IMG/VR virus record: IMGVR_UViG_3300030118_002786
Location: 1 to 25,979 of that record
Reading direction: 5' to 3' (one strand)
Source of the DNA: a virus
DNA: 25,979 nt
The notes beneath the pieces are model-generated. The model worked only from the letters and a program-made list of their open reading frames with translations, made no database searches and was not told the DNA's origin. This document shows positions 4,187 to 23,667 of this stretch, one piece after another; the stretch's first letter is position 1, and every line of letters begins with the position of its first letter. The translations under genes and the position numbers were made by a program.

Positions 4187-5325
4187 TGCCTGTACAGAAG
4201 GGGCATTTGTTACAAAGCCCTCATGTAGATATTGTTGTCGATGACGTTATTTTAAATGATGTTGTTTCTATAAATCTTACACATGAATTAGACAAAGCAA
4301 GAGTTTTGACATGTGTATTTAGAGGAGATGCTGCTTTACTACATTGTCGTTTAGGTTCTATTGTATCTTTAAGACAACATATAGGTAAACCTACTAGTGG
4401 AGTGTTTAGTGATGATAATTCTTTTTTAGGTATTATAAAAACTATATCTCCTTCAGATGAAGAACATCAGTTTATTGCATTTGATTTTACTACATTACTT
4501 GCAGAATCTCAATTAATAAATTTTAAAGCTGAAGATTATATTGGAGAGGATTTATATTTTGCAGCAGCAAATGCTTGTGATTTTAAATATCATGGAGAAG
4601 TTTCTCTTATGTCAAATACAAGTATTGATGTGTCAAATCTAAAAGGTGGTTCTGGTATTTTTATAACAGAGGATATGGATTTATTTGGCTGGAAGACTCG
4701 TAAAGAATTTATTGATGCTTGTTTTAATGAAATGAAAGTGTTAAGAGATGATGCACATCATCCACAATTTGCAATACAACAATTTCATTATGCAATCCAT
4801 AAAGATAATATTATGAGTTTTTTTGCTCCAGACCCTTTACATAAACAAGCAATACCTTCACTTACATTATCAAAAGACAATAATAACATACCAGCAAAAG
4901 GAGTTGTATCACAGATAGATACTACTAAATTAGTTAATGCAATTACTGTAGTAAGTAAAACAGACTCTACTATTTATGCACAAAGAGAAAATGCTTCTAG
5001 TATTGCACGCTTTGGTGTTATATCTAAGTTTATACAATTAGATACTGATGACATAAATGTATTAGATAATGCGGCTGAACTTATCTTAAGAAGATTTGAT
5101 AAACCATCTATATTCTATAATATTGTTTCTATAGAACCAACTAACTTACATCTAGGAGATTTGGTAAGAGTTAACTTACCACGATTAAATATTGATGAAA
5201 TATTACCAATAACATCTATAACATTAGATATAGGTACAGAAATACAATATCAATTCAAAGTAGGAGAGAGAACTTTAACTTTACAAGAAGAGCTAGAAAT
5301 AGTTTCTAATCCTACAAATAGATAG
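4186..5325 (+). CDS. Tail hub / baseplate hub protein (gpD / gp27-like)
   Basis: This 379-aa protein starts in a TAATG overlap with the preceding gene, which suggests translational coupling. The N-terminus (HVDIVVDDVILNDVVSINLT) and the C-terminal third resemble tail hub proteins of the late-control-gene-D / ReqiPepy6 gp37-like group. That third contains AITVVSKTDSTIYAQREN, a run containing ARFGVISKFIQLD, then SIEPTNLHLGDLVRVNLP and the closing strands. Such hubs cap the tail tube and hold the tip or cell-puncturing device. It is the last gene of the left plus-strand tail operon and is followed by a structured convergent intergenic region. No peptidase or lysozyme domain is visible. Confidence 0.7.
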   Translation: MPVQKGHLLQSPHVDIVVDDVILNDVVSINLTHELDKARVLTCVFRGDAALLHCRLGSIVSLRQHIGKPTSGVFSDDNSFLGIIKTISPSDEEHQFIAFDFTTLLAESQLINFKAEDYIGEDLYFAAANACDFKYHGEVSLMSNTSIDVSNLKGGSGIFITEDMDLFGWKTRKEFIDACFNEMKVLRDDAHHPQFAIQQFHYAIHKDNIMSFFAPDPLHKQAIPSLTLSKDNNNIPAKGVVSQIDTTKLVNAITVVSKTDSTIYAQRENASSIARFGVISKFIQLDTDDINVLDNAAELILRRFDKPSIFYNIVSIEPTNLHLGDLVRVNLPRLNIDEILPITSITLDIGTEIQYQFKVGERTLTLQEELEIVSNPTNR

Positions 5326-5331
5326 AGACAG

Positions 5332-5469
5332 ACACCTTCATTTCCACTGGAACTTTTTATATATAAGAAAGAATATATCTTATATAGCTAATAAGCCGCC
5401 GTACCCCTCTATAATTTTTTTTAAAAAAAACGACACACCTTGTAATAGTTCCAGTGGAAACAAAGGTGT
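5332..5469. repeat. Nested inverted repeats between convergent operons (possible bidirectional terminator or origin-like structure)
   Basis: Two 22-nt arms (5332-5353 and 5448-5469) are inverted copies matching at 20 of 22 positions, each containing TTTCCACTGGAAC or its complement. Inside lie a second perfect inverted repeat TATATAAGA/TCTTATATA (5360-5368 and 5378-5386) and a T8A8 palindrome around 5415-5430. A competing stem ACACACCTT (5433-5441) / AAGGTGTGT (5463-5471) shares the right arm, so two alternative folds are possible. The block sits exactly where the plus-strand tail operon and the minus-strand cluster converge. A bidirectional terminator is the simplest reading; a replication or packaging structure is possible. 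Confidence 0.75.
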
Positions 5470-5495
5470 GTGTGCCTCTCTTTTATATCAAATCC

Positions 5496-6061: not shown

Positions 6062-6073
6062 ATGGGTTAAACA
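6062..6073. repeat. ATGGGTTAAACA motif, copy 2
   Basis: Identical to the other three copies. Here it overlaps the stop codon of the 6067-6318 gene: on the minus strand TGTTTAACCCAT contains that gene's TAA. It also lies just upstream of the TATA box for the next unit. Confidence 0.7.
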
Positions 6074-6318
6074 TTTTTATTAATAATTTTTACAAGCCCT
6101 ATTTTTACAAAAGAATTAACAAATTCTTCTTCAGAATCAATATTAATGACATTTTTCTTTACATTGTAGATGTTTTCGTACGAATAACGCACACCATCCA
6201 TGTATTCTTTATTATTTATTTCTTCACAAAAAGGATGTTTCATTTGCATGAACTCAATGAATCGTTTTGGATTTTCATAGTTGTAAGTGCTGCCGTCTAA
6301 CCACTTGATTTGTTTCAT
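6067..6318 (-). CDS. Hypothetical protein, 83 aa
   Basis: The ATG at 6318 is preceded by CCAAATAATACAC, a variant of the CCAAATAA box seen in the arrays, and no ribosome-binding sequence is visible. The protein is Asn/Tyr/Lys-rich (MKQIKWLDGSTYNYENPKRF, later NIDSEEEFVNSFVKIGLV) and has no recognised domain. It appears to be a single-gene unit ending in copy 2 of the ATGGGTTAAACA motif. A possible structured leader lies upstream. The opening WLDGSTYNY-PKRFIEFM suggests a compact alpha/beta fold, but nothing more can be said. Confidence 0.55.
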   Translation of the reverse strand: MKQIKWLDGSTYNYENPKRFIEFMQMKHPFCEEINNKEYMDGVRYSYENIYNVKKNVINIDSEEEFVNSFVKIGLVKIINKNV

Positions 6319-6331
6319 GTGTATTATTTGG

Positions 6332-6829: not shown

Positions 6830-7005
6830 TCTTTCTCCTTCTTTGCTAACATTTCTTCATGTATTACATAAATCTCAGCGTTATCGTAACATAACGCACA
6901 CAATCCCATAGATTTATTGATTACATATACTACACCTAACTTAGTTAGGTTGTCGCCACAATTATCACAACTATCTGTGTAATAGTCTTTCCATTTCTGT
7001 ATCAT
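6826..7005 (-). CDS. Zinc-ribbon protein, 59 aa
   Basis: This ORF begins in an ATGA overlap with the nuclease gene and ends in an ATGA overlap with the next gene. AGGAG precedes its start. It contains two CxxC knuckles, CDNCGDN near residue 13 and CALCYDN near residue 36, the spacing of a small zinc ribbon, followed by a charged helix ending KKEKE. The fold is likely metal-stabilised; it could bind nucleic acid or a protein partner. Confidence 0.7.
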   Translation of the reverse strand: MIQKWKDYYTDSCDNCGDNLTKLGVVYVINKSMGLCALCYDNAEIYVIHEEMLAKKEKE

Positions 7006-7868
7006 TTCTTTCTCCTTTTTGTTATCCCTGCTTTATCACGCAATGATGATAATTTTCCATTAGATAAATTGAGTTTCTCCATCATTCGTTTAAAGGTATA
7101 ACCTTTCTTATGTAACTTCTTAACCTCTTTGATTAACTTGTCATTTTCTTCTTTTGTGTAGTTACTGTAGCCGTTTACGTGGTGTTTCCATTCACCTCGG
7201 TAACTTACATGGCCATTTATGACCCTGTTAAACGTATTTCTACTGATATTATACTTCTTACATACATCTAAGATGGCCTGAGTTACTTCTCTACGTTTAC
7301 CGTGCTTTGCAGCGTTTACAAATTCTTTAACAATTCGTTTCTTTTCTGTTTCTTTGAAATTTAATAATTTCTTTGTAATGTAATTTGCTTTGCGCATGAA
7401 TGCAGGTCTGTCCAATTTTAGCACATCCCAATTATTACGACAGATTGAATACTTGTCATACGTATTGTAATACGATAACTTACTATAGTTACTACCATAT
7501 TGCGCACACATATCATTATTCTGTAAAACGCACACAACTCTATGATTCCTTTCATGTAAATATTTTTGTGGTATCATATAGAATACTTCTGGTAATCCAT
7601 TCATATCAATACCAACACATAAAGCATAATCGAAAGCATCTTTCTTTAATTGACTTTTCTTAAAGTTGAATCGGTATGTATTAGACGGGCGTTTAGAGTT
7701 GCGTTCTTGGTAGATATTGGAGGTTTTGATTTCTACCCGATAGCCTTTTTCAATAAGAACAGTATCATAAACGTCTTTGATAGGCGCATTACGTATTCCA
7801 TTCTTAATTAAAGCTATAGAAGCTTCTAACTCTCCAATATCTCCTGTATCTTGTGGATTCATTAACAT
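7002..7868 (-). CDS. PD-(D/E)xK nuclease with C-terminal HTH repeats
   Basis: This 288-aa protein has an N-terminal PD-(D/E)xK-like core. GDIGELEASIALIKNG (about residues 9-24) supplies the helix with the conserved Glu. An Asp follows at about 35 (VYDTVLIEKG), then the signature VEIKTSN (about 45-51). After a middle section come two helix-turn-helix-like units, one near 195-230 (TQAILDVCKKYNISRNTFNR) and one near 247-283 (LIKEVKKLHKKGYTFKRM). Such proteins cut DNA as homing, resolving or restriction-like enzymes. The HTH units imply sequence-specific binding. GGAG lies 7 nt before the start, and the gene overlaps both neighbours. Target and role are unknown. Confidence 0.7.
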   Translation of the reverse strand: MLMNPQDTGDIGELEASIALIKNGIRNAPIKDVYDTVLIEKGYRVEIKTSNIYQERNSKRPSNTYRFNFKKSQLKKDAFDYALCVGIDMNGLPEVFYMIPQKYLHERNHRVVCVLQNNDMCAQYGSNYSKLSYYNTYDKYSICRNNWDVLKLDRPAFMRKANYITKKLLNFKETEKKRIVKEFVNAAKHGKRREVTQAILDVCKKYNISRNTFNRVINGHVSYRGEWKHHVNGYSNYTKEENDKLIKEVKKLHKKGYTFKRMMEKLNLSNGKLSSLRDKAGITKRRKK

Positions 7869-7999: not shown

Positions 8000-8887
8000 T
8001 TATTTCACCTCCTTTGATTTTTTAGACCATGAACGCCAGTCTCCATAGACTGCTTCCCATTCAACGTCTATATCATCCAAATAAGACACACATTCTTCCT
8101 CTTGTTCTGGTTGGCATACGAGGCTGGTCTGCCTCGTAGCCTTTGGTGTGTGTCTTTTCTGGGACAAATCTCTCCATGAATAGGTTGGACGCTTGATTTT
8201 TCTTAGGTGTGTTTTGTGAACACTCATTCCTTCTGGAGTAAATTTGTACAGATGTCCGTGTTTTGCATCAAAGACTTGTTTGAATCTCAAACCAGTAGAC
8301 ATTAGATGTTCATCAGTAGATGAATACATGAAATCCCCATTGAATAGTTCACCAATAACTAAAGGAGACATTCCATTAGTCCAAAGATACATAGTCTTAC
8401 CTTTGGCCCATGAAATAGACATAGAGCCTTCTACGTGTCGAGCTACTGCATCTATACCACCGTTCTTTAATGCTACAAGGATTGCTTCAGTATCTACATC
8501 ACGCTTTGCGCTTGTATTATACTTACCTAAGACATTACTCTTATTATATACAACACCATTATGACATAGAGCCATTTTACTACCCATTAGAGGGTGATTG
8601 TTTCTATTTAACTCTGGTTTACCATGAGTTGCAGCTCTCGTATGTAACATGACCCATCGTGGGCTTCTATTCATACCAAAAGCTAGGTTCATAGTCAAAC
8701 CACTAAGTTCATACGCTGGTTTGTCTGTTTTGTAATGCCTAATACCTGTAGGACTTTCATACGCAACGCCTGAAGCGTCTGTACCTCTGGACTGTAGGGT
8801 ATCCCACATTTTCCTGAGGGCTGGCTGTGCCCACTTAGGGGCGTTTTCTGTACTACCTGTTTGGTAGTATCCTCCGATTCCGCACAT
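8000..8887 (-). CDS. Class II glutamine amidotransferase (Ntn hydrolase)
   Basis: This 295-aa protein starts MCGIGGYY at 8887. An upstream GTG (8896) is rejected because Cys2 must become the N-terminal nucleophile after Met removal; the GTG is part of the ribosome-binding cassette GTGATAAAC. All class II landmarks are present: Cys2, the oxyanion and glutamine-binding residues in RGTDASG (34-40), HTRAATHG (82-89, Arg84), CHNGVVYN (108-115, Asn110/Gly111) and DTE (Asp132). The family releases ammonia from glutamine for a partner synthase. Here no synthase domain is fused; residues after about 230 are a short basic and acidic tail. The likely partner is the amidoligase at 10207-11340, in the same strand cluster. 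First gene of a six-gene operon. Confidence 0.88.
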   Translation of the reverse strand: MCGIGGYYQTGSTENAPKWAQPALRKMWDTLQSRGTDASGVAYESPTGIRHYKTDKPAYELSGLTMNLAFGMNRSPRWVMLHTRAATHGKPELNRNNHPLMGSKMALCHNGVVYNKSNVLGKYNTSAKRDVDTEAILVALKNGGIDAVARHVEGSMSISWAKGKTMYLWTNGMSPLVIGELFNGDFMYSSTDEHLMSTGLRFKQVFDAKHGHLYKFTPEGMSVHKTHLRKIKRPTYSWRDLSQKRHTPKATRQTSLVCQPEQEEECVSYLDDIDVEWEAVYGDWRSWSKKSKEVK

Positions 8888-8922
8888 GTTTATCACTTAT
8901 TCCTATCAAAAGTCGCCTTCTG

Positions 8923-9776: not shown

Positions 9777-9874
9777 CACGAATCGGTGTTTTTAGTGTTA
9801 TTTCTAGCGCATTTTAGAATCCCGTTAAAGGTTTGCAGGACATTAGACTTACAGTAATAATAATAATAGGAGTA

Positions 9875-10060
9875 CCAATAAAACACACAACCAAAAAAAA
9901 GATGTGCATTATATGGTAAAGAACTAAATAATTCACACAGACAAATAAAACACACAGTAAAATAAAACACACAACCAAATAACACACATATTTCAGGATT
10001 TAAGAGCTGTTAAAGAAAAAAAAGTGTGTTTTATCTGGTAAAAGCCCAAATAACGCACAT
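9875..10060. repeat. Array 2 of CCAAATAA boxes (noncoding 9777-10063)
   Basis: This gene-free stretch holds about eight degenerate copies of the CCAAATAAYGCACACA box. Plus-strand copies begin at 9875, 9924, 9941, 9959, 9975 and 10046; minus-strand copies lie at 9903-9916 and 10024-10038. Copies from 9924 to 9990 are nearly contiguous with a period of 16-18 nt. Frames through it are low-complexity and not coding. It lies between the 3' end of the amidoligase unit and the start of the zinc-ribbon operon. Confidence 0.75.
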
Positions 10061-10063
10061 CCT

Positions 10064-10075
10064 ATGGGTTAAACA
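10064..10075. repeat. ATGGGTTAAACA motif, copy 4
   Basis: Identical 12-mer downstream of the two hairpins that follow the amidoligase gene, immediately next to the last CCAAATAA box of array 2. Confidence 0.7.
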
Positions 10076-10138
10076 AAAATGCCTGTAGATTTTTCTAGTG
10101 CTTTTTCTGGTCAATTCTGATAAAATTATAATTCTAAA

Positions 10139-10189
10139 GTTCGCTAAAAAGCGAACGTGTGGATTAATTGGATATTATCCAATCAATCC
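10139..10189 (-). terminator. Two consecutive hairpins after the amidoligase gene
   Basis: The first is a 29-nt palindrome (10161-10189) with 14-nt arms matching at 13 positions around a single base, core ATTGGATA/TATCCAAT. The second is GTTCGCT-AAAA-AGCGAAC (10139-10156), a perfect 7-bp stem. Both lie within 70 nt of the amidoligase stop, and T-rich stretches follow on the minus strand. A terminator or 3'-end-protecting structure is likely. Confidence 0.6.
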
Positions 10190-10206: not shown

Positions 10207-11340
10207 TTATTCTTGGCTTACGATTTCTTGAAATCTTCTAATCACATTTTGGACATTAATTAGAGAGGTTGGTAACCTATTATTTTCTAATGTTTGTTGA
10301 ATGTAATTTCTTAAAACTAAAAGACTTAATTCATTCCTGTTATATCTTCTTATCCATGTTCTGATAGCGTGATAATCTCCATAGCTATTTTCAAGGACTA
10401 AAAGAGTTTCATTATATGGACTTAAGAAATCGTCATCCTCTGAATTATTGCTGTTTTGCACTGGAGCGGCCGCTATTGCTTCAAAACCATTATTGGCCAC
10501 TCTATCCCTAACCCAACCTCTTACGTGTCTATTTGACGCTCCAAAGCCTAGAAAATCGCACATTCCATCTACTGTGATTGGGTAATTTCTGCAGTCTTGA
10601 TTTTTGTATTTTCTGTCTGCAGTTCTAGCTACAAATCTTTCCATTAGCTTAACCCAGTTTACTATTTTTGTAGCGTTTAAAGTTCCTTGAAATTGTCTAA
10701 ATTCGACAGTTCCATAAGATGCCAAACTTACAAAGTTAATTACGTTATATCTAGCGTTAGAATCAAGGCCACGAGGTGGAGCTGTCATTGACTTATCTTC
10801 TGAATACATCTTTAACTGTGCATCAGTGATATTTGCCCACTCATCCTGTATAGGATTGTTGTAAGCGTGACCAGTTAAGACCCTTCGAGAAGGTGCGACT
10901 ATTGCATCTATTACAGGCTGAAAGTAAGCGTAATTCTTAAGCAATTTAGCACAGAATAAACGAACAGGCTTTGAGTCAATAGCCTTGAGCTTTCCAGCTC
11001 TGTAATTGACGTTTACACGTCTTTTGGCCCAGTATTTGTTCAATACATCTACATGAAGGTGAAAACCACACTGTCTGTCAACTCTAGCCAAATCTTTAAC
11101 AGCTTCACAAATTAGCTTCACTTCTCTCTCGATTCGTGGCATTCCAGCTAGTGGAGGGCTTACAATCTCAAATCCGTTACTTACTGAAGCATCTGAAACA
11201 GCTTTCCAACTGGACATAACTTCATGAGTGTATCCTTCATAATTTATGCTAATTCCTTTGGCTCTGATTGAGTCCAAAATATCTGCACGGGTAACCCCAG
11301 CGACTGGCTTTAGTTCAAGTTCCAAACCGACTTTGTACAT
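10207..11340 (-). CDS. COOH-NH2 amidoligase (Amidoligase_2 family)
   Basis: The start MYKVGLELEL at 11340 is chosen because a TATA box is centred 26 nt upstream, making the mRNA leaderless; an ATG farther upstream at 11394 would sit before the promoter. The 377-aa protein has the marks of the glutamine-synthetase-like Amidoligase_2 family. These are GLELEL (5-10), a DASVSNGFEIVSPPL stretch (about 50-64), CGFHLHVD (91-98) and YNVINF with TVEFRQFQGTLN (198-222). The family uses ATP to join a carboxylate to an amine or ammonia, making amide or peptide bonds. In several genomes it is encoded near class II amidotransferases, as here (8000-8887). Residues from about 270 form a divergent tail. The substrate is unknown. 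Confidence 0.82.
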   Translation of the reverse strand: MYKVGLELELKPVAGVTRADILDSIRAKGISINYEGYTHEVMSSWKAVSDASVSNGFEIVSPPLAGMPRIEREVKLICEAVKDLARVDRQCGFHLHVDVLNKYWAKRRVNVNYRAGKLKAIDSKPVRLFCAKLLKNYAYFQPVIDAIVAPSRRVLTGHAYNNPIQDEWANITDAQLKMYSEDKSMTAPPRGLDSNARYNVINFVSLASYGTVEFRQFQGTLNATKIVNWVKLMERFVARTADRKYKNQDCRNYPITVDGMCDFLGFGASNRHVRGWVRDRVANNGFEAIAAAPVQNSNNSEDDDFLSPYNETLLVLENSYGDYHAIRTWIRRYNRNELSLLVLRNYIQQTLENNRLPTSLINVQNVIRRFQEIVSQE

Positions 11341-11370
11341 ACCTCTCCAGTAGCATACTACATATAAAAG
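11340..11370 (-). promoter_or_regulatory. Leaderless promoter of the amidoligase gene
   Basis: TTTTATAT (11369-11362, minus strand) is centred 26 nt before ATG 11340. A variant operator GGCCATATGTGCC lies just upstream (11384-11372) rather than downstream of TATA, so its effect may differ from the other promoters. GGAGAGGT touches the ATG, so a ribosome-binding site is also present. Confidence 0.6.
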
Positions 11371-11494
11371 GCACATATGGCCCAGTAAGCACAAAACAGG
11401 CTAAAGGTCATATTTTCTAGAGTTTTAGGAAGCCCTAAATGCACTCCGCAAAACTTACAAAATTAATCATTATTTTTACTATTATAATACCATT

Positions 11495-11689
11495 CCAAAT
11501 AATACACATTCCAATTAATCCACACACTCCAAATAGTACACATTCCAAATAGTTAACACAGCCAAATAACCCACATTCCAAATAATGCACAAACCAAATA
11601 ATTCACATTGGAAAATATCCAAATAATTAACACAAAGCGCACCAATAGACAGAGGTTTGCCTCGTGTAATAATCCAAAAAATACACACG
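11495..11689 (+). repeat. Array 1: tandem CCAAATAATNCACATT repeats (in noncoding 11371-11822)
   Basis: Eight direct copies begin at 11495, 11511, 11529, 11545, 11562, 11578, 11594 and 11619, all in the same orientation. The first seven follow head-to-tail with a period of 16-18 nt and no spacer. A ninth degenerate copy is at 11674. Consensus CCAAATAATNCACATT; the positions after CCAAATA vary most. This is iteron-like architecture, in the divergent control region between the minus-strand cluster and the plus-strand operon. The remainder of 11371-11822 is A/T-rich with no convincing gene. Confidence 0.85.
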
Positions 11690-11822: not shown

Positions 11823-12023
11823 ATGTCCTTCCCTAGTAGAGGTGGTATGGTATATTCTAAGAAGAAGGGGTGGCCTAAGCAGTTTGTGCTGAATTGTGGG
11901 CGAGACCCTATGAGAAAGGAAGTATTTGCAGAGATGCAGCGTTTGGCAGATGAGGATGAGATGAGTTTGCAGGAGGAAATATGGGAAGCATTGCTGATAC
12001 ATACAAGAAGAAGGAAGTTATGA
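11823..12023 (+). CDS. Ribbon-helix-helix-like regulator, 66 aa
   Basis: The start is ATG 11823, with TAGGATT upstream; a second Met eight residues later is possible. The basic N-terminus (SKKKGWPKQFVLNC) gives one beta-strand. Two helices follow (PMRKEVFAEMQRLADEDE and SLQEEIWEALLIHTRRR), the strand-helix-helix pattern of CopG/Arc/MetJ repressors, which bind short palindromes as dimers. It heads the plus-strand operon behind a promoter carrying half of the GGTCATATGACC palindrome, so autoregulation is plausible. The family call rests on pattern only. Confidence 0.5.
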   Translation: MSFPSRGGMVYSKKKGWPKQFVLNCGRDPMRKEVFAEMQRLADEDEMSLQEEIWEALLIHTRRRKL

Positions 12024-14864: not shown

Positions 14865-16299
14865 TGGCGCATTGAATACGTTAAAGAGTACTCCGCTTAC
14901 TTTAGAGGAGTTTATAGACGATGTATTGCGTCATTACATGGAATTAGAACCGGGAGAATATGTCCCTTTAGGACAGATGCACGCAGAGTGGGCCGATGCG
15001 TTTGAATCAGGCACGCATACGTCAATAATTTGCGCAAGGGGTCACTTGAAGACGTCTTGGGGCTTGTCTGCACTTGCATATCAGATGGCAATGCAGCCAA
15101 ATTACCGTGCATTATATCTTTCAGCAACCTTGGAGCAGGCATGGGATAAGTTAGAACAGTTTGAGGAAATATGTAGACGTTCTTGGAGGCTTAATTCGTT
15201 TATGAAAGCGCAGGATGAGGACAGTAAAGTTACATGGAGGAAGGGTGCTAAGTATTTTAATAATGGAAGTAGGGTTCATGGTGCAAGTATTGGTAAAGCG
15301 TTAGAAGGTCCTCACGTTCACATGATTATTCTGGATGATATATTACAAGAGTTTCCTAATATGACAGATGATAAGGTAATTCACTACATAAAGCGTGTGG
15401 TTATGCCGATGAGGTTACCAAAGGCAAAGATGTTATTAGTAGGAACACAGAAGCGAGTAGGCGATGCAACAGATTGGGCAGAGCAAAACCCTCAGTGGAA
15501 CTCAGTGCGTCATCCAGCTTTGTTAGAAGATGGAACGCCACGTTGGCCTGAGTATTGGAATCAGGAAAGACTTGACAAAGAGCGAGAGACTATGGGAAGT
15601 AGGGCGTTTGAGTCTGAGTATATGTTGAATCCATTGGACCCAGAATCTGCTGTTATACCTTACGAGGTTTTGAAACCTTGTTTGAAAGAAAGTATGGGCA
15701 TGGGCTTACCTGAGTCAGGTGATGATTGGTTTGTGACTATGGGTGTTGACTTAGCAGTAGGTATGGACAGTCAGAATGACGAGTCTGCGTATGTGGTCAT
15801 GGCTTATAATCGAGTTACAGAAGAACGTAAGGTATTGTATTGCTGGTCAGGTAAGATTCGGGCTAAGGGTGCAGGCTGGTTAGAGGCTCAGGTAGTAACG
15901 ATGAAGAGTTTGGCAGACAAGTACAAGCCTGACAAGATTATGGTGGAGTCCAATGGTTATCAGAGATTGGTAGTACACACAGCAAGGGAATTAGATGGCA
16001 TGCCTGTTGAGGGACACAACACAGGCAGAGAGAAACACAAGCATGATGTTGGAGTTCCTAGAATTGCGTTAGCAATGGAGCAGGGCAAGTATTTCATACC
16101 TTGGAATAAAGAAGCAAGAGAGAATTCAAAACCGGGAATGAGAAAATTAGTAGATGGTTTGAGTAGATTAATTTACGGTAAGAATGGAAGGCTTGAAGGA
16201 CATACGCCCGATGCTGTTATGGCGCTATGGATGTGTGAGTTATGTGTGCATTATTTGGAAAAAAAGAGATTAGTTTTTACACGATGGGACTACATTTAG
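14812..16299 (+). CDS. terL: Terminase large subunit
   Basis: This 495-aa protein contains both terminase domains. The ATPase half has a Walker A variant CARGHLKTS (about residues 74-82), LYLSATLEQAWDKL (about 101-114) and Walker B MIILDDIL (about 171-178). The coupling region is LLVGTQKRVGD (about 208-218). The RNase-H-like nuclease half has MGVDLAVG (Asp313), IMVESN (Glu379) and HTPDAVMALWM (Asp near 472). The enzyme pumps viral DNA into the prohead and cuts it. The start at 14812 overlaps the upstream small gene. Length is normal for the family. Confidence 0.93.
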   Translation: MTKSKKGIDDKLLNLAISGALNTLKSTPLTLEEFIDDVLRHYMELEPGEYVPLGQMHAEWADAFESGTHTSIICARGHLKTSWGLSALAYQMAMQPNYRALYLSATLEQAWDKLEQFEEICRRSWRLNSFMKAQDEDSKVTWRKGAKYFNNGSRVHGASIGKALEGPHVHMIILDDILQEFPNMTDDKVIHYIKRVVMPMRLPKAKMLLVGTQKRVGDATDWAEQNPQWNSVRHPALLEDGTPRWPEYWNQERLDKERETMGSRAFESEYMLNPLDPESAVIPYEVLKPCLKESMGMGLPESGDDWFVTMGVDLAVGMDSQNDESAYVVMAYNRVTEERKVLYCWSGKIRAKGAGWLEAQVVTMKSLADKYKPDKIMVESNGYQRLVVHTARELDGMPVEGHNTGREKHKHDVGVPRIALAMEQGKYFIPWNKEARENSKPGMRKLVDGLSRLIYGKNGRLEGHTPDAVMALWMCELCVHYLEKKRLVFTRWDYI

Positions 16300-16360: not shown

Positions 16361-16540
16361 ATGACAAGTTCACCCAGCAACGGAACACGAATGGAATTGT
16401 GGGGAATATCTGTTGAGACAAAACGAAATTTAAAGACGTTGGCAAAGGTCAAAGAGACGCCAGTATCTAAAATGTTAGAACCTGTTATCGAAGATTATAT
16501 ACACAGGCATCGTCATGTCCTTGAGTCGAGGAGACTATAA
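16361..16540 (+). CDS. Ribbon-helix-helix regulator, 59 aa
   Basis: This short ORF lies between terminase and portal, and its stop overlaps the portal ATG (TAATG). After a polar N-terminus (MTSSPSNGTR; ATG 16391 is an alternative start), MELWGISVETKRNLKTLAKV gives the RHH strand and first helix. TPVSKMLEPVIEDYIHRHRH gives the second helix. This is a good CopG/Arc-type match. Such proteins repress promoters by binding short palindromes. The adjacent operator variant suggests autoregulation and possibly control of the other operators in the window. Confidence 0.65.
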   Translation: MTSSPSNGTRMELWGISVETKRNLKTLAKVKETPVSKMLEPVIEDYIHRHRHVLESRRL

Positions 16541-18012: not shown

Positions 18013-18677
18013 AAAAAATTAGAACTTATGACGAATTGCGCACACAAGTAGATGACATTGCTATAATGTTAGCTAAACGCATGCGTGATGCAATAATAGA
18101 TGACATGGATTTTGCATTTAGAAATGGTTATCAGTCTGCATATGGTGAGATAAAAGGTATAAGTAAAACAGCAGCTAAGGCACCTGACATGAGTCAACAA
18201 GATTTAGATATACTTACTATGCTTAAAAACGAAGGCGCTTTGTATAATGCGTACAATCAATTTCAAAATATACTAGTGCAAAAATTAAATGCAGCTATTG
18301 TGGCAGGAATATCACAGGGCAGTAGTATTCCTGTTATTGTGCAAAACATGAGACAAGTAGGCATTGGTGAAACGTATAAGCTTACAAGGATAGCAAGAAC
18401 AGAAATAAGTCAAATAGCAAATGAGGGTAGGTTACGTGGCTACAAAATAGCAGAGCAACGTATGGGACAACAATTTAAGTATGGATTAATTATCGGTAAA
18501 GATAGAAGAGTATGTCCTGCACACAAAGAGTTAGCACAAAGACAACCAAAAGACGGAATGTTCTTAAACGATTTAATTATGTTACAACAAGAAGTAGGAG
18601 CGAAATATAGAATGAATCTAAGAGGTCATTCTTTGTTACATCCTAATCAAAGAACACAACTAGTGAGGATAGTATGA
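17955..18677 (+). CDS. Head morphogenesis protein (SPP1 gp7 / Mu gpF-like)
   Basis: This 240-aa protein overlaps the portal end by 58 nt from ATG 17955. The N-terminal half is helical. The C-terminal half has the gp7/gpF signature: a helix with RIARTEISQIANEGRLRGYK, then FKYGLIIGKDRRVCPAHKEL, and a final RMNLRGHSLLHPNQRTQLV. The Cys, His and closing LHPN-R elements are conserved in the family. It is a minor capsid protein needed for infectious head assembly or DNA ejection. Confidence 0.8.
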   Translation: MESAARELRRVLVQELKQLEKIRTYDELRTQVDDIAIMLAKRMRDAIIDDMDFAFRNGYQSAYGEIKGISKTAAKAPDMSQQDLDILTMLKNEGALYNAYNQFQNILVQKLNAAIVAGISQGSSIPVIVQNMRQVGIGETYKLTRIARTEISQIANEGRLRGYKIAEQRMGQQFKYGLIIGKDRRVCPAHKELAQRQPKDGMFLNDLIMLQQEVGAKYRMNLRGHSLLHPNQRTQLVRIV

Positions 18678-19528: not shown

Positions 19529-19562
19529 CCAAATAATGCACACAACTGTGTGCGTTATCTGG
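19529..19562. repeat. 34-bp palindrome made of two CCAAATAA boxes
   Basis: CCAAATAATGCACACA (19529-19544) and the reverse box TGTGTGCGTTATCTGG (19547-19562) form a dyad with 14 of 16 pairs and a 2-nt centre. It begins at the base after the connector stop and ends next to the late promoter element at 19564. It may be both terminator hairpin and operator. Confidence 0.8.
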
Positions 19563-19563
19563 T

Positions 19564-19614
19564 AACCCGAGTAAATATTTTTCTTTTTATATTGCCTCAT
19601 GTGTGCGTTATTTG
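19564..19614 (+). promoter_or_regulatory. Late promoter A: AACCCGAGTA-N10-TATA-N22-GTG
   Basis: AACCCGAGTA (19564-19573), then exactly 10 nt, TTTTTATA (19584-19591), then 22 nt to GTG 19614. TGTGTGCGTTATTT, the reverse CCAAATAA box, fills 19600-19613 at the predicted start site. Spacing is identical to late promoter B. Confidence 0.75.
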
Positions 19615-21905
19615 TGGCAGACGAAAGTAACACTGGTTGGAAAGTCTACCGACCAGAGTGGTATAATGACAGAGTAATGGAGACATACATCTCCGCTCCT
19701 ATCGTTGATAAACAGAACGATATGATACCCACTGATACTATCAAAGAAGCTATGGATTTTTACATGCGCTACGGCGTATATTCTTACCGTCATGAAGAGA
19801 TGCCAATCGGTTTACCTTTGGCTTACAAAATAAAAAACGGTAAAGTTAAGATTAGAGTAGGAATACACAGTAAAATCGGAATGCACGATAAAGTGTGGGA
19901 TGAGATTAAACAATATGGACACACAGGAGCAAGCAGCATACGTGGGGAAGCCACAAAACAAGAGAAGGTTTGTCAATCAGAAAACGACTGCCACAATCGT
20001 ATAAACGAACTTTCTCTTTGGAGCATATCTTGGGTTGGCGATAATCCTGCTAACCCAGAGGCAAAAGTCACGGATGTTGCTATGGTCAAATCTAAAAGTG
20101 TACAAGTCACTTTAGATGAGATAGAAGGCATGGTTGAAAAAATCATAGAGCGTAAAAAAGGCAAATACTGTTTGTACGCTAAAAAGGACCGAAGACTCTT
20201 GGGTTGCCATGATACCAAAGCTGGAGCTATAAGGCAGGAAAGGGCCATACAAGCGAGAAGATTCAGTAAATCTGATTTACTCAATGACCTTGTTACAAAA
20301 GTAGAAAAGTACAAGATACCAAATGGCGTAAGAGAAGAAGCGCTGGCAGGCAGAGAGCTACGTAAGAAGTTTGGATATGGTGGCGGTAAAGTTACAAAAG
20401 CAATAAACGCACATTTGATAAATAAAAAATATGTATCATATGGCATGGCAATGAAAATTCATAAGTATTATAGAAGACATGAAAAGGTAGACCCTAAAGG
20501 TAAAAACTTTGATAATAAGAAAAGACCTAGTAAGGGTTTGATTATGTGGAAGATGATGGGCGGTAACGCAGGTCACAGTTGGAGTAAAAGTTTAGAACAG
20601 AAAGTCAAAGCCGAACCATGTTGGACAGGTTATGAAATGGTAGGATTTAAGAACGAAGGAGGCAAACGTGTGCCAAATTGTGTACCTGTAAGTAAGAGTA
20701 GACATCCACAAACGCCTGCAAAGCCTAGCGAGAGGCGTAGAGGCAGTGATAAGAATCCAAAAGGGTCAGCAGGCGGACAACGTGGCGGAATCAAACTTAG
20801 TGAAGCAAACATAAAAACACTTAAGAATTATATTAAAGAACATAACGAAAAAGTTGGTGATGCAAAAGGCAAGAGAGCAAATCTAGGAGCATTAAAAGCT
20901 GTATTCCGTAGAGGCGCAGGCGCATTTTCAACAAGTCACAGGCCAAGTGTAAGAAGTCGTGACCAATGGGCGTTAGGTAGAGTCAAAGCATTTTTAAAAT
21001 TACTAAGTTCTGGTAGGCCATCTAATCCAAAATATACTACAGATTATGATTTGTTACCAAAAGAACATCCTAAATCTACAAAGAAATCTAAAGAAGATAC
21101 TGTAAAAGTAAATCCACCTAAAGGTTATCACTGGATGCAGACTAGAGAAGGTCCAGTATTAATGGAAGGAGACTACGAACCACATGATGGTGCAGTAGAG
21201 GCGTTTCCATTTACAGTATTAGAAACACATGAAGATGAAAGAATCATAAAAGCAGAGTATCAAGGACGCAAAGTAGAACTTAACAAACCACGCAGACTGT
21301 CTGGAGAAAACAAAAAGTTTGGAGTTTATGTCAAAAACGATAAAGGGAATGTAGTGCAAGTCAAGTTTGGCGACCCTAACTTAGACATAAAGCGTGATGA
21401 CCCAGAAAGACGTAGAAACTTTAGGGCCAGACATAATTGCGATAATCCCGGTCCTAAACATAAAGCACGATATTGGTCTTGTAGAATGTGGAGTTCTAAA
21501 AACGTATCAGATATAGTAGGCAAAGCAGAATGTCCACCAGTAATAAAAACTGAAAAACTTAAAAAAACAAATCAACATTTAGATGATATAATGCGTATGA
21601 TTAAGTTTGGTACTTTTTTACAAAAGAAACCTAAACGTGAAGAGGAAGGTGCGTCAAATCAACCACCGGGAGCGTGGATGGCAAACTGTAAGCTTGCAGC
21701 AAGAAAGTTAAGTGGTTTAACAGGCAATAAATTTACAGGAACTAGAGCAGTAATCAGAGATGAAGCGGCATGGTGTGCTGAATTATATAGAAATCCTGCT
21801 GCATATAGTAAACCGTACAAAAGACCAGATGGAACTACAGGAACTACCAGTGGATTCAAACTTAGAGACGCAGTAGGCAGAGCTAATTTTAATCCTAAAA
21901 AGTAA
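19614..21905 (+). CDS. Prohead protease fused to several small domains (763 aa)
   Basis: The start GTG 19614 is chosen because it sits where late promoter A predicts transcription to begin; ATG 19599 lies inside the promoter's box. Residues 1-155 look like an XkdF-type prohead protease: KVYRPEWYNDRVMETYISAP, His60 in YRHEE, Ser107/108 in TGASSIRGEA, and LSLWSISWVGDNPANPEA. After that come linked segments, each resembling a small phage domain. These are KYCLYAKKDRRLLGCHDTKA (from about 184), WTGYEMVGFKNEGGKRVPNC (near 340), a region near 450-470, ARHNCDNPGPKHKARYWSC (near 605) and PPGAWMANCKLAARKLSG (near 685). The fusion is far longer than usual proteases. The pieces might be released by self-cleavage. 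Confidence 0.65.
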   Translation: MADESNTGWKVYRPEWYNDRVMETYISAPIVDKQNDMIPTDTIKEAMDFYMRYGVYSYRHEEMPIGLPLAYKIKNGKVKIRVGIHSKIGMHDKVWDEIKQYGHTGASSIRGEATKQEKVCQSENDCHNRINELSLWSISWVGDNPANPEAKVTDVAMVKSKSVQVTLDEIEGMVEKIIERKKGKYCLYAKKDRRLLGCHDTKAGAIRQERAIQARRFSKSDLLNDLVTKVEKYKIPNGVREEALAGRELRKKFGYGGGKVTKAINAHLINKKYVSYGMAMKIHKYYRRHEKVDPKGKNFDNKKRPSKGLIMWKMMGGNAGHSWSKSLEQKVKAEPCWTGYEMVGFKNEGGKRVPNCVPVSKSRHPQTPAKPSERRRGSDKNPKGSAGGQRGGIKLSEANIKTLKNYIKEHNEKVGDAKGKRANLGALKAVFRRGAGAFSTSHRPSVRSRDQWALGRVKAFLKLLSSGRPSNPKYTTDYDLLPKEHPKSTKKSKEDTVKVNPPKGYHWMQTREGPVLMEGDYEPHDGAVEAFPFTVLETHEDERIIKAEYQGRKVELNKPRRLSGENKKFGVYVKNDKGNVVQVKFGDPNLDIKRDDPERRRNFRARHNCDNPGPKHKARYWSCRMWSSKNVSDIVGKAECPPVIKTEKLKKTNQHLDDIMRMIKFGTFLQKKPKREEEGASNQPPGAWMANCKLAARKLSGLTGNKFTGTRAVIRDEAAWCAELYRNPAAYSKPYKRPDGTTGTTSGFKLRDAVGRANFNPKK

Positions 21906-21956
21906 AACCCGAGTATTTTTTGTTATTTATATAGGCTGAGCCAAATAACGCACACA
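21906..21956 (+). promoter_or_regulatory. Late promoter B: AACCCGAGTA-N10-TATA-N22-ATG
   Basis: AACCCGAGTA (21906-21915), then exactly 10 nt, TTTATATA (21926-21933), then 22 nt to ATG 21956. CCAAATAACGCACACA (21941-21956) ends on the A of the start codon. The TATA centre lies 26 nt before the ATG, so the scaffold/capsid mRNA should be leaderless. Confidence 0.8.
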
Positions 21957-22507
21957 TGAGCGCATGCAGTTGTGGAGGTACACACGAAGCACCTACCGAA
22001 ATGGTAGAAGCTGAAAAAAGTGAAGCCTTAGACGAGCCAGTTATGGAATCTGACATAGATAAAGCAGATGAATTATACAAAGACATGGAAGCCACCCTTG
22101 GAAAACTCAAAGAAATCATGGCCTACCTTGAAGAAATGAAAGACGAAAAGATGGACCACGAAGAAAAAGCCGAACACGAAGAAGAGGAAAAAGAAGAGGA
22201 AGAAGAGGAAAAAGCCGAACACGAAGAAAAGATGGAAGACGAAGAAAAGGCTGAACATGAAGAAGAAGAGGAAGAAGAGGATGAAGAAGAAAAGATGGAC
22301 CACAAGAAAAAAGACACCATTGATGAACTTCACAAATCACTTACAACTTTAAAGAAATACGGAATTAACGTATATTCAGGTAGCAGGAAAACTCCAGCAC
22401 CTAAGAAAATTGACACTCCCGCAGTTGAAGAAAAAACCAACTGGTTTAACTTCTCCAAATCCTTGGATGAAGTAGCACACATGAAAGGAGAGGAAACAAG
22501 AATATGA
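21956..22507 (+). CDS. Acidic coiled-coil protein, probable scaffold, 183 aa
   Basis: ATG 21956 is the predicted leaderless start. The first residues hold a Cys/His cluster (MSACSCGGTHEAP). Residues about 60-120 are an extreme Glu/Lys/His/Asp low-complexity helix built of variants of KAEHEE and KMDHEE, and the C-terminal 60 residues are basic and aromatic (KTNWFNFSKSLDEV). Scaffold proteins often have this highly charged coil and lie between protease and capsid genes, as here. The stretch 22130-22310 is an imperfect repeat at DNA level. A zinc-binding role for the N-terminus is possible. Confidence 0.6.
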   Translation: MSACSCGGTHEAPTEMVEAEKSEALDEPVMESDIDKADELYKDMEATLGKLKEIMAYLEEMKDEKMDHEEKAEHEEEEKEEEEEEKAEHEEKMEDEEKAEHEEEEEEEDEEEKMDHKKKDTIDELHKSLTTLKKYGINVYSGSRKTPAPKKIDTPAVEEKTNWFNFSKSLDEVAHMKGEETRI

Positions 22508-23667
22508 GCAACGGAACAAGTTTCGAGGACTATGTTAACGCTTATTATGGCGGGACACTAGGTATCTCAAAAAGATATGGAATAGAAAAAAGCGCAACTG
22601 AATTGACTACAGCAGACGCAGATTACTTTAATGTAATGTTTGGAGCATCTGTATTCAATCAGCTAAACACAAGGTCAGAAGTATTTAAGCTTCTAAACAA
22701 AGCAGGTTGGACACAATCTGGATGGAGAGTCATGTACCAAAGACATGCAAACACCACTGGTATTGCAGAAGGTGACACACTAGGTACAGCAGACCAACCA
22801 GAACTCAAAGAAATGAGTGCAACCATCAAAGAAGTATCTACTCGCTGGGACACAACAACCAGAGCAGAGTTACTAGCTGACGCAGATGACGGAATCAAAG
22901 GTCTAGCAGCTTTCTTAAGAAAAGAAAACGGAGAAGCACACGCTTTCTTCCTAGACAAACAGTTACTAGCTTCAGTTAATACATCAGATGCAGCAACAGT
23001 TGCACAAGATGATTCTAACAACAACTTCGAATCTATTGATAAAATGACCACTTCTACCGCAGCAGTTGCAGCAGACAGTGACATTCCAAATCACATAGAA
23101 GATATGTACTTAGTAGACAGAGGTGCAGCAGGATTCACAGAGTGGATGCAGCCAGCAGCCTGTATTCAAGGTTCAACCGAAGGTACAGCCGAGGCATTAG
23201 ATTTAGATAAACTAGACACATTAATCAGGTCTTGTTTGGAAAACGGAGCTAACTACCAAGACTTGTTCTTCTTAACTGGTCATGATACATTGTACAACAT
23301 GAAACAGAAAATGACCACACACGGTTCAGGAAGCTTGGGTCAATTTGATATTAGACAACAAGCTGCAACCGCAGTCAATGGAGTAGCAAGCGAAGGTGGT
23401 TTAAACTTTGATACTCGTGTCGGTTACTATGACGGAATACCAATTTTCGTATCACAGCACGTTACAAAAGACACAGCATCTAAGATTTACTTGTTAGACA
23501 GAACTGCAATGGAACTAAGAATTGCAGCACCAACAACTTACATTGCAAGTGAAAACTTAGTTACAACCAACGCATTGAAAAAGCAATTTGCTTTCATCAC
23601 TGCTGGTGAACTAATTGTCTACAGATTCAACACAAGCGGAAAGATAACAGATTTAGACCTGTCATAG
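22504..23667 (+). CDS. Major capsid protein (HK97-fold type)
   Basis: This 387-aa protein begins in an ATGA overlap with the scaffold, with GGAGAGGAAAC upstream. Length and composition fit an HK97-like capsid. The N-terminal arm is SFEDYVNAYYGGTLGISKRY. A strand region follows (GWRVMYQRHANTTGIAEGDT), then a spine-helix-like LAAFLRKENGEAHAFFLDK. The C-terminal third has DLFFLTGHDTLYNMKQKM, GYYDGIPIFVSQHV and KIYLLDRTAMELRIA. The last group, a short strand, IPIFVS and then LLDRTA with a closing membrane-like strand, is common in this family. Gene order (protease, scaffold, capsid) supports it. Confidence 0.82.
   Translation: MSNGTSFEDYVNAYYGGTLGISKRYGIEKSATELTTADADYFNVMFGASVFNQLNTRSEVFKLLNKAGWTQSGWRVMYQRHANTTGIAEGDTLGTADQPELKEMSATIKEVSTRWDTTTRAELLADADDGIKGLAAFLRKENGEAHAFFLDKQLLASVNTSDAATVAQDDSNNNFESIDKMTTSTAAVAADSDIPNHIEDMYLVDRGAAGFTEWMQPAACIQGSTEGTAEALDLDKLDTLIRSCLENGANYQDLFFLTGHDTLYNMKQKMTTHGSGSLGQFDIRQQAATAVNGVASEGGLNFDTRVGYYDGIPIFVSQHVTKDTASKIYLLDRTAMELRIAAPTTYIASENLVTTNALKKQFAFITAGELIVYRFNTSGKITDLDLS

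Follow-up and report, generated by a model that had tools for sequence, protein, structure and literature searches.

Genomic context of the late promoters

The stretch analyzed here, hereafter the window, is a virus record of 25,979 bases in which a head-protease-like fusion gene is followed by genes for a scaffold-like acidic protein and the major capsid protein, with a predicted TATA promoter in front of the protease gene and another in front of the scaffold gene (Table 1). The portal and MuF proteins have Pfam matches, and the capsid protein, besides its likeness to haloviral capsid proteins, is 22.5% identical to that of a Methanofastidiosa virus. Gene order compared with that of two relatives, G001 and G007, suggests a full genome of roughly 36 to 38 kb.

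Table 1. Coordinates of the genes, promoter parts and boxes discussed in the text.
Feature	Position	Strand	Remark
16-mer box at start codon of early gene g83	6316..6331	-	Covers the start codon; g83 at 6067-6318
Class II glutamine amidotransferase gene	8000..8896	-
16-mer box array	9874..10171	.	Downstream of amidoligase gene
Amidoligase-like gene	10207..11394	-	Between box arrays; divergence follows box type
Array of nine 16-mer boxes	11495..11689	+	Divergent intergenic region
RHH1	11847..12023	+	58-aa ribbon-helix-helix-like protein; candidate UAS reader
Two overlapping 16-mer boxes	16232..16258	-	In 3' end of large terminase gene
RHH2	16361..16540	+	Arc-like protein of 59 aa, encoded between terminase and portal; alternative UAS reader
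16-mer box in MuF gene	18031..18046	+	Type switches with promoter boxes in relatives
Left 16-mer box of the inverted pair	19529..19544	+	Directly 3' of upstream stop codon
Right 16-mer box of the inverted pair	19547..19562	-
UAS-like element 1 (AACCCGAGTA), protease promoter	19564..19573	+	-50 to -41
TATA box (TTTTTATA), protease promoter	19584..19591	+	-30 to -23
16-mer box at protease gene start	19600..19615	-	Covers predicted transcription and translation start
Head-protease-like fusion gene	19614..21905	+	Leaderless GTG start, conserved
UAS-like element 2 (AACCCGAGTA), scaffold/capsid promoter	21906..21915	+
TATA box (TTTATATA), scaffold/capsid promoter	21926..21933	+
16-mer box at scaffold gene start	21941..21956	+	Last base is the A of the start codon
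Scaffold-like acidic protein gene	21956..22507	+	Function from position and composition
Major capsid protein gene	22504..23667	+	27-29% identity to HVTV-1/HCTV-1 capsid proteins

Three features support an archaeal host for this marine tailed virus: a haloviral capsid protein, TATA promoters, and GTTCCAGTGGAAAYRAAGG sequences arranged as an inverted pair. A search of genome contigs for the host by homology returned neither a terminase relative nor an origin-box match. The GTTCCAGTGGAAAYRAAGG sequences agree with archaeal origin recognition boxes described in the literature (PMC4153887). They lie at 5317-5357 and 5444-5484, flank AT-rich DNA and are about 107 bp apart; most of the relatives examined have such a pair at this position, and others have a single copy or none. 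Host Orc1/Cdc6 probably reads the region 5317-5484 as the replication origin of the virus.

Relatives were collected from IMG/VR in three viral scans, which yielded 18, 40 and 80 loci; a further scan with the window's own amidoligase as the query added nothing new. These records are metagenomic and some are fragmentary, and relatives, including members within one lineage, are not independent samples. Lineage C carries extra genes on the opposite strand between g179 and the protease gene (L169, 5604-6439; L170, 8898-9733), which encode proteins of 182 aa, with a cysteine-peptidase-like motif recognized by eye, and 99 aa.

Two late promoters share their layout

The initial annotation had described two late promoters in which a 10-nt element, a gap of 10 nt, a TATA sequence, 22 nt and the start follow one another identically. 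The element AACCCGAGTA, the TATA sequence (19588-19591 and 21930-21933), the 22-nt spacing and the starts are indeed as described at both promoters, but the gap between element and TATA is 14 nt; to obtain a gap of 10 nt, the box must be taken as TTTWTATA, starting at 19584 and 21926. Because of this wrong gap, the pattern as written is not significant, a search of the window with up to three mismatches giving 4 matches versus 2.2 expected. The element itself, hereafter the UAS, is exact at both places and has no other copy in the window even at one mismatch; under a second-order Markov model, 0.01 exact copies would be expected. Its first base is 50 nt from the start codon at both promoters (GTG at 19614 and ATG at 21956).

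Relatives keep GTG 19614 (GTGGCAG...) as the protease start. This conserved start and the TATA box at -30 to -23 fit an archaeal leaderless promoter, in which TATA lies some 26 bp before a start codon that doubles as the transcription start; the transcription start has not been mapped. The longest open reading frame begins at ATG 19599, just 7 nt past the TATA sequence, and this is probably the wrong start for the protease gene.

Might the two promoters resemble each other merely through duplicated or recombined DNA, with short shared ancestry and nothing more? They do share UAS, TATA and box, and these viruses actively recombine. Nevertheless, the stretch from UAS to start is dissimilar outside the elements, the boxes are in opposite orientations, and four lineages each match themselves at both promoters, as detailed below. 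We regard such an origin of the likeness as very improbable.

Two other repeated sequences occur near starts. TTTAACCCATRG has four copies on the minus strand (5494, 6060, 8982 and 10062) versus 0.26 expected, all on the early strand only, and two of the four stand shortly before a TATA-like box; it is possibly an early-promoter element resembling AACCCGAGTA. Sequences like CATATGTCC lie near several starts (8929, 11820, 16304 and others), are over-represented at one mismatch (18 versus 5.4 expected) and are among the top repeated 8-mers in the relatives G004, G018, G019 and G020.

The upstream element is lineage specific and concordant between the two promoters

Relatives in the window's own lineage that cover both promoters have the 10-mer at about -50 in both, in agreement with the conservation that had been anticipated for it. 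In the alignment upstream of the protease gene the lineage has AACCCGAGTA, with AACCCGAGTG or TTACCCGAGTG in a few members, and the leaderless GTG is kept. In 17 of the 23 distinct scaffold promoters of this lineage, the start codon lies another 2 nt downstream, and we therefore take element-to-TATA, rather than element-to-start codon, to be the fixed spacing.

Across the relatives, the UAS exists in lineage-specific versions, AACCCGAGTA, TATACGGAG, TTTCCGGAAA or YTCCGAAA, whose core begins 45 to 49 nt upstream of the start codon. In most promoter sets the UAS is much richer in information than the flank upstream of it. The larger records (11 to 34 kb) have the UAS at both late promoters and almost no copy elsewhere. 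The UAS type was the same at the protease and scaffold promoters in all 46 distinct pairs (17 A/A, 10 C/C, 10 D/D and 9 E/E), without a mismatch. This count leaves out loci whose scaffold promoter fitted none of the four patterns, and the E-type group comprises few loci.

Three viruses separate the UAS from the genes that it precedes. In L009, L010 and L101 the scaffold genes are 80-84% identical to that of the window, and the capsid genes, where covered, 96-97% identical, yet both promoters carry the lineage C UAS. In L010 and L101, for which the terminase/RHH region is covered, promoter type follows that module and not the driven gene, which is our main ground for invoking a viral trans-acting factor at the UAS.

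The element near -50 had been likened to an activator site or to an unusual extended TFB-recognition element. If the latter, it would be read by a general host factor, and the two promoters would merely be strong promoters of the host type; its position upstream of TATA in a canonical archaeal leaderless promoter is compatible with this. The BRE, however, directly abuts TATA, whereas 14 nt separate the -50 element from it. Furthermore, each genome has the element at two promoters only, and viruses whose structural genes are closely alike differ in its sequence, a pattern one would not expect if a conserved host factor read it. We hence give the TFB reading little credence. As three other lineages place a different element at this position, concordantly in all 46 pairs, a lineage-specific, virus-encoded activator is the favored reader of the UAS, although no binding or activation data are available. 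The proposal of a virus-specific late-gene switch gains support from this conservation in relatives, and start sites, binding, regulation and late timing remain to be shown.

Candidate readers of the UAS

Two small proteins, RHH1 and RHH2, are of types that segregate with UAS type. The terminase and TerS modules also cosegregate with it, and cosegregation alone therefore cannot name the reader. RHH1 shows greater variation in its putative DNA-contacting strand (QFVLN, THLLS or RYLIS) than does RHH2 (R-x-E-x-[WYF]-G). On account of this divergence between UAS types, in the absence of binding data, we consider RHH1 somewhat more likely than RHH2 to read the UAS.

The ribbon-helix-helix fold of both proteins is only weakly supported. 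Foldseek searches with RHH1 returned mostly Arc, CdbA, NikA and CopG, all of them weak matches (best E-value, 1.9), and its AlphaFold model (pLDDT 65) predicts two helices. RHH2 has weak Arc-like matches. Neither protein matched Pfam, and PDB profile searches gave weak matches only.

A dispersed family of 16-mer boxes includes those at the predicted start sites

A box at each predicted start site, inverted at one promoter and direct at the other, had also been noted, and both are present as described. The "CCAAATAA box" is real but was under-described, as it belongs to a larger 16-mer family, CCAAATAACGCACACA, with copies in genes, promoters and arrays. Allowing up to three mismatches, the window contains 23 copies versus 0.29 expected, a number reached by none of 100 shuffled sequences. 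Position weight matrices (PWMs) found 40 to 43 copies versus 1.0 to 1.1 expected; the matrices were refined on the same sequence and their counts are biased upward, the mismatch count being less affected. The copies (27 plus and 13 minus) have no consistent relation to gene direction.

Other viruses have their own versions of the box, with TTACGCACWA, ATTACATACA and TTATGTACACA cores, in many of the same places in comparable genomes. We distinguished types I (CCAAATAAYGCACACA), Ib (CAANATWRCGCACACA-like), II (ACGNWTTACGCACWA), III (ACGRATTACATACA) and IV (ACGAATTATGTACACAA), the last represented by few loci. Box positions are syntenic among relatives, intragenic ones included, and many of them are occupied in the type II genome, G019, by that genome's own version. 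The intragenic boxes in g116 and TerL are not kept in all relatives. No box-like repeat family was found in the lineage C and D viruses examined.

The box within the MuF gene illustrates the change of type. Nearly all type I viruses have (G/A)AATTRCGCACACA there, encoding ELRT or KLRT; type III viruses have GAATTACATACACA, encoding ELHT, an R-to-H change; and a type IV virus has GAATTACGTACACA. MuF box type equals promoter box type in all loci examined except L014. With only ten distinct combinations behind it, the agreement is a strong pattern, but the sample is not large. The MuF genes of lineage C lack such a sequence. L009, which combines a type III MuF box with lineage C promoters, is in our reading a recombinant.

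It had been suggested that the box is a repressor site. That is plausible, and better supported now that the box proves to belong to a genome-wide family of about 40 sites changing in concert, although repression has not been shown. The boxes could instead be genome maintenance sites (parS-like partition, condensation or packaging) used by a virus protein, their presence at promoters being incidental. Many of them, in both orientations, do lie in coding or intergenic DNA without a recognized promoter, and those in arrays are spaced at 16-17 bp. Against an incidental presence, boxes fall exactly on the start points of g83 and the two late promoters, where they are conserved. We find a purely maintenance role rather doubtful, without dismissing it.

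Box type follows the amidoligase module

In viruses of types I and III, box arrays stand on both sides of the amidoligase gene, and the glutamine amidotransferase and amidoligase genes occur only in viruses with 16-mer boxes. In the 11 records covering both regions, the nearest neighbor by amidoligase always shared the box type or had the one closest to it (11/11), while TerS, RHH1, TerL and g111 relationships in these records mix box types. Types II and III are represented by few records. The determinant of box type thus maps to the amidoligase/early module. DNA binding by the amidoligase is not proven, and inspection of the module revealed no DNA-binding protein.

Several candidate box readers were eliminated. 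TerS is 98% identical between type I (G018/L182) and type III (L055) viruses, and RHH1 and RHH2 likewise do not follow box type. A helix-turn-helix (HTH) protein encoded at 7002-7868 is missing from some box-carrying genomes, such as G001 and G005, yet is present in lineage C. In this protein (minus strand) the HTH is C-terminal and the N-terminal part is, in our view, nuclease-like; few relatives have it, and its identity in these is only 28-37%, although many neighboring genes are conserved. The variable protein g83 is present only in box-carrying viruses, and its confident model (pLDDT 90) matched no known fold; whether it reads the boxes is left open.

As the viral box-binding protein has not been identified and the types differ among viruses of unknown host, a host protein might read the boxes, with types reflecting different hosts rather than different viral regulators. 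This appears unlikely to us, in view of the dependence of box type on a viral module when other viral genes are up to 98% identical across types, and of the lack of a box family in lineages C and D.

A model for late head-gene control

We consider it probable that two site sets govern late head-gene expression, through a viral activator at the UAS and a separate viral box-binding protein. What the genomes provide directly are the sites, their counts, geometry and conserved positions, and the co-switching of both families; that proteins bind these sites, that they activate or repress, when they do so and which two proteins are involved are all inferred, there being no expression or binding data. 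A virus-encoded activator, most likely RHH1 or RHH2, would bind the UAS some 45-50 bp upstream of the start of the leaderless TATA promoters and recruit host TBP, TFB and RNA polymerase to produce two late transcripts, one for the protease and one for scaffold and capsid. The separate DNA-binding protein, set by the early/amidoligase module, would bind the asymmetric 16-bp site at about 40 places. Boxes over the start point and in the inverted pair farther upstream would prevent late initiation and oppose the activator, and the arrays and intragenic boxes may silence or condense the genome, or keep it quiet.

More tentatively, the whole may form an immunity-group system comparable to the stoperators of phages, combining a silencer with dozens of dispersed sites and switching specificity with a late activator whose specificity evolves separately. 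The silencer would be encoded by or closely linked to the amidoligase/amidotransferase pair and might represent a new kind of DNA-binding regulator. We hold this to be possible, short of probable. If true, silencer specificity would shift genome-wide between close relatives, recoding protein where a site is intragenic.

Comparison with known systems

To our knowledge, no activator-operator pair has been characterized for late-gene control in tailed archaeal viruses. Two pairs of activator/operator type can be proposed here from sequence, with natural swaps between close relatives linking element to module. They predict cross-reactivity groups, i.e., who regulates whom, among uncultured marine viruses, and offer short, testable DNA targets with a small list of candidate proteins.

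In Cluster A mycobacteriophages such as L5 and Bxb1, a repressor acts with operators and stoperators (PMC6550527, PMC9283540). As in that cluster, a short asymmetric site recurs tens of times over the genome, in promoters and elsewhere, and the motif varies between related viruses. In contrast, the window belongs to an archaeal TATA-promoter virus, the site is 16 bp long rather than 13, the sites ignore transcription direction, no repressor or integrase has been identified, and tandem arrays flank the amidoligase gene. The box system thus resembles stoperators in its logic, but we do not class it with them because the orientation rule, by which most sites point one way relative to transcription, fails and no repressor is known. 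A literature search on stoperators and archaea found only one cyanophage paper.

For the UAS, a comparison is offered by archaeal activators such as Ptr2 and TFB-RF1, which enhance the recruitment of TBP and TFB (PMC5569661). The location of the window's element, upstream of BRE/TATA, would suit such recruitment, but unlike theirs, the window's activator protein is not demonstrated. Ptr2, moreover, is a cellular protein of another family. The nearest protein precedent is provided by the ribbon-helix-helix regulators of archaeal viruses, SSV1 F55, AFV6 AvtR and SIRV SvtR, since the window's candidates are small proteins of this type, with the weak fold support noted above. F55, whose sites overlap the start point, works on early promoters as well as on its own, and AvtR, with eight potential sites, can both activate and repress (PMC5569661). 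Unlike the sites of F55 and AvtR, the element of the window marks exactly two head-gene promoters, in four lineage-specific versions. The nearest promoter precedent is that of rudiviruses and their relatives, in which conserved regulatory sequences of early genes define an early anti-defence regulon (PMC11065993). Both cases have a virus-specific sequence around a conserved promoter core at co-regulated genes (in the window, by prediction), but the element described here stands at the protease and scaffold/capsid genes, at a fixed gap from TATA.
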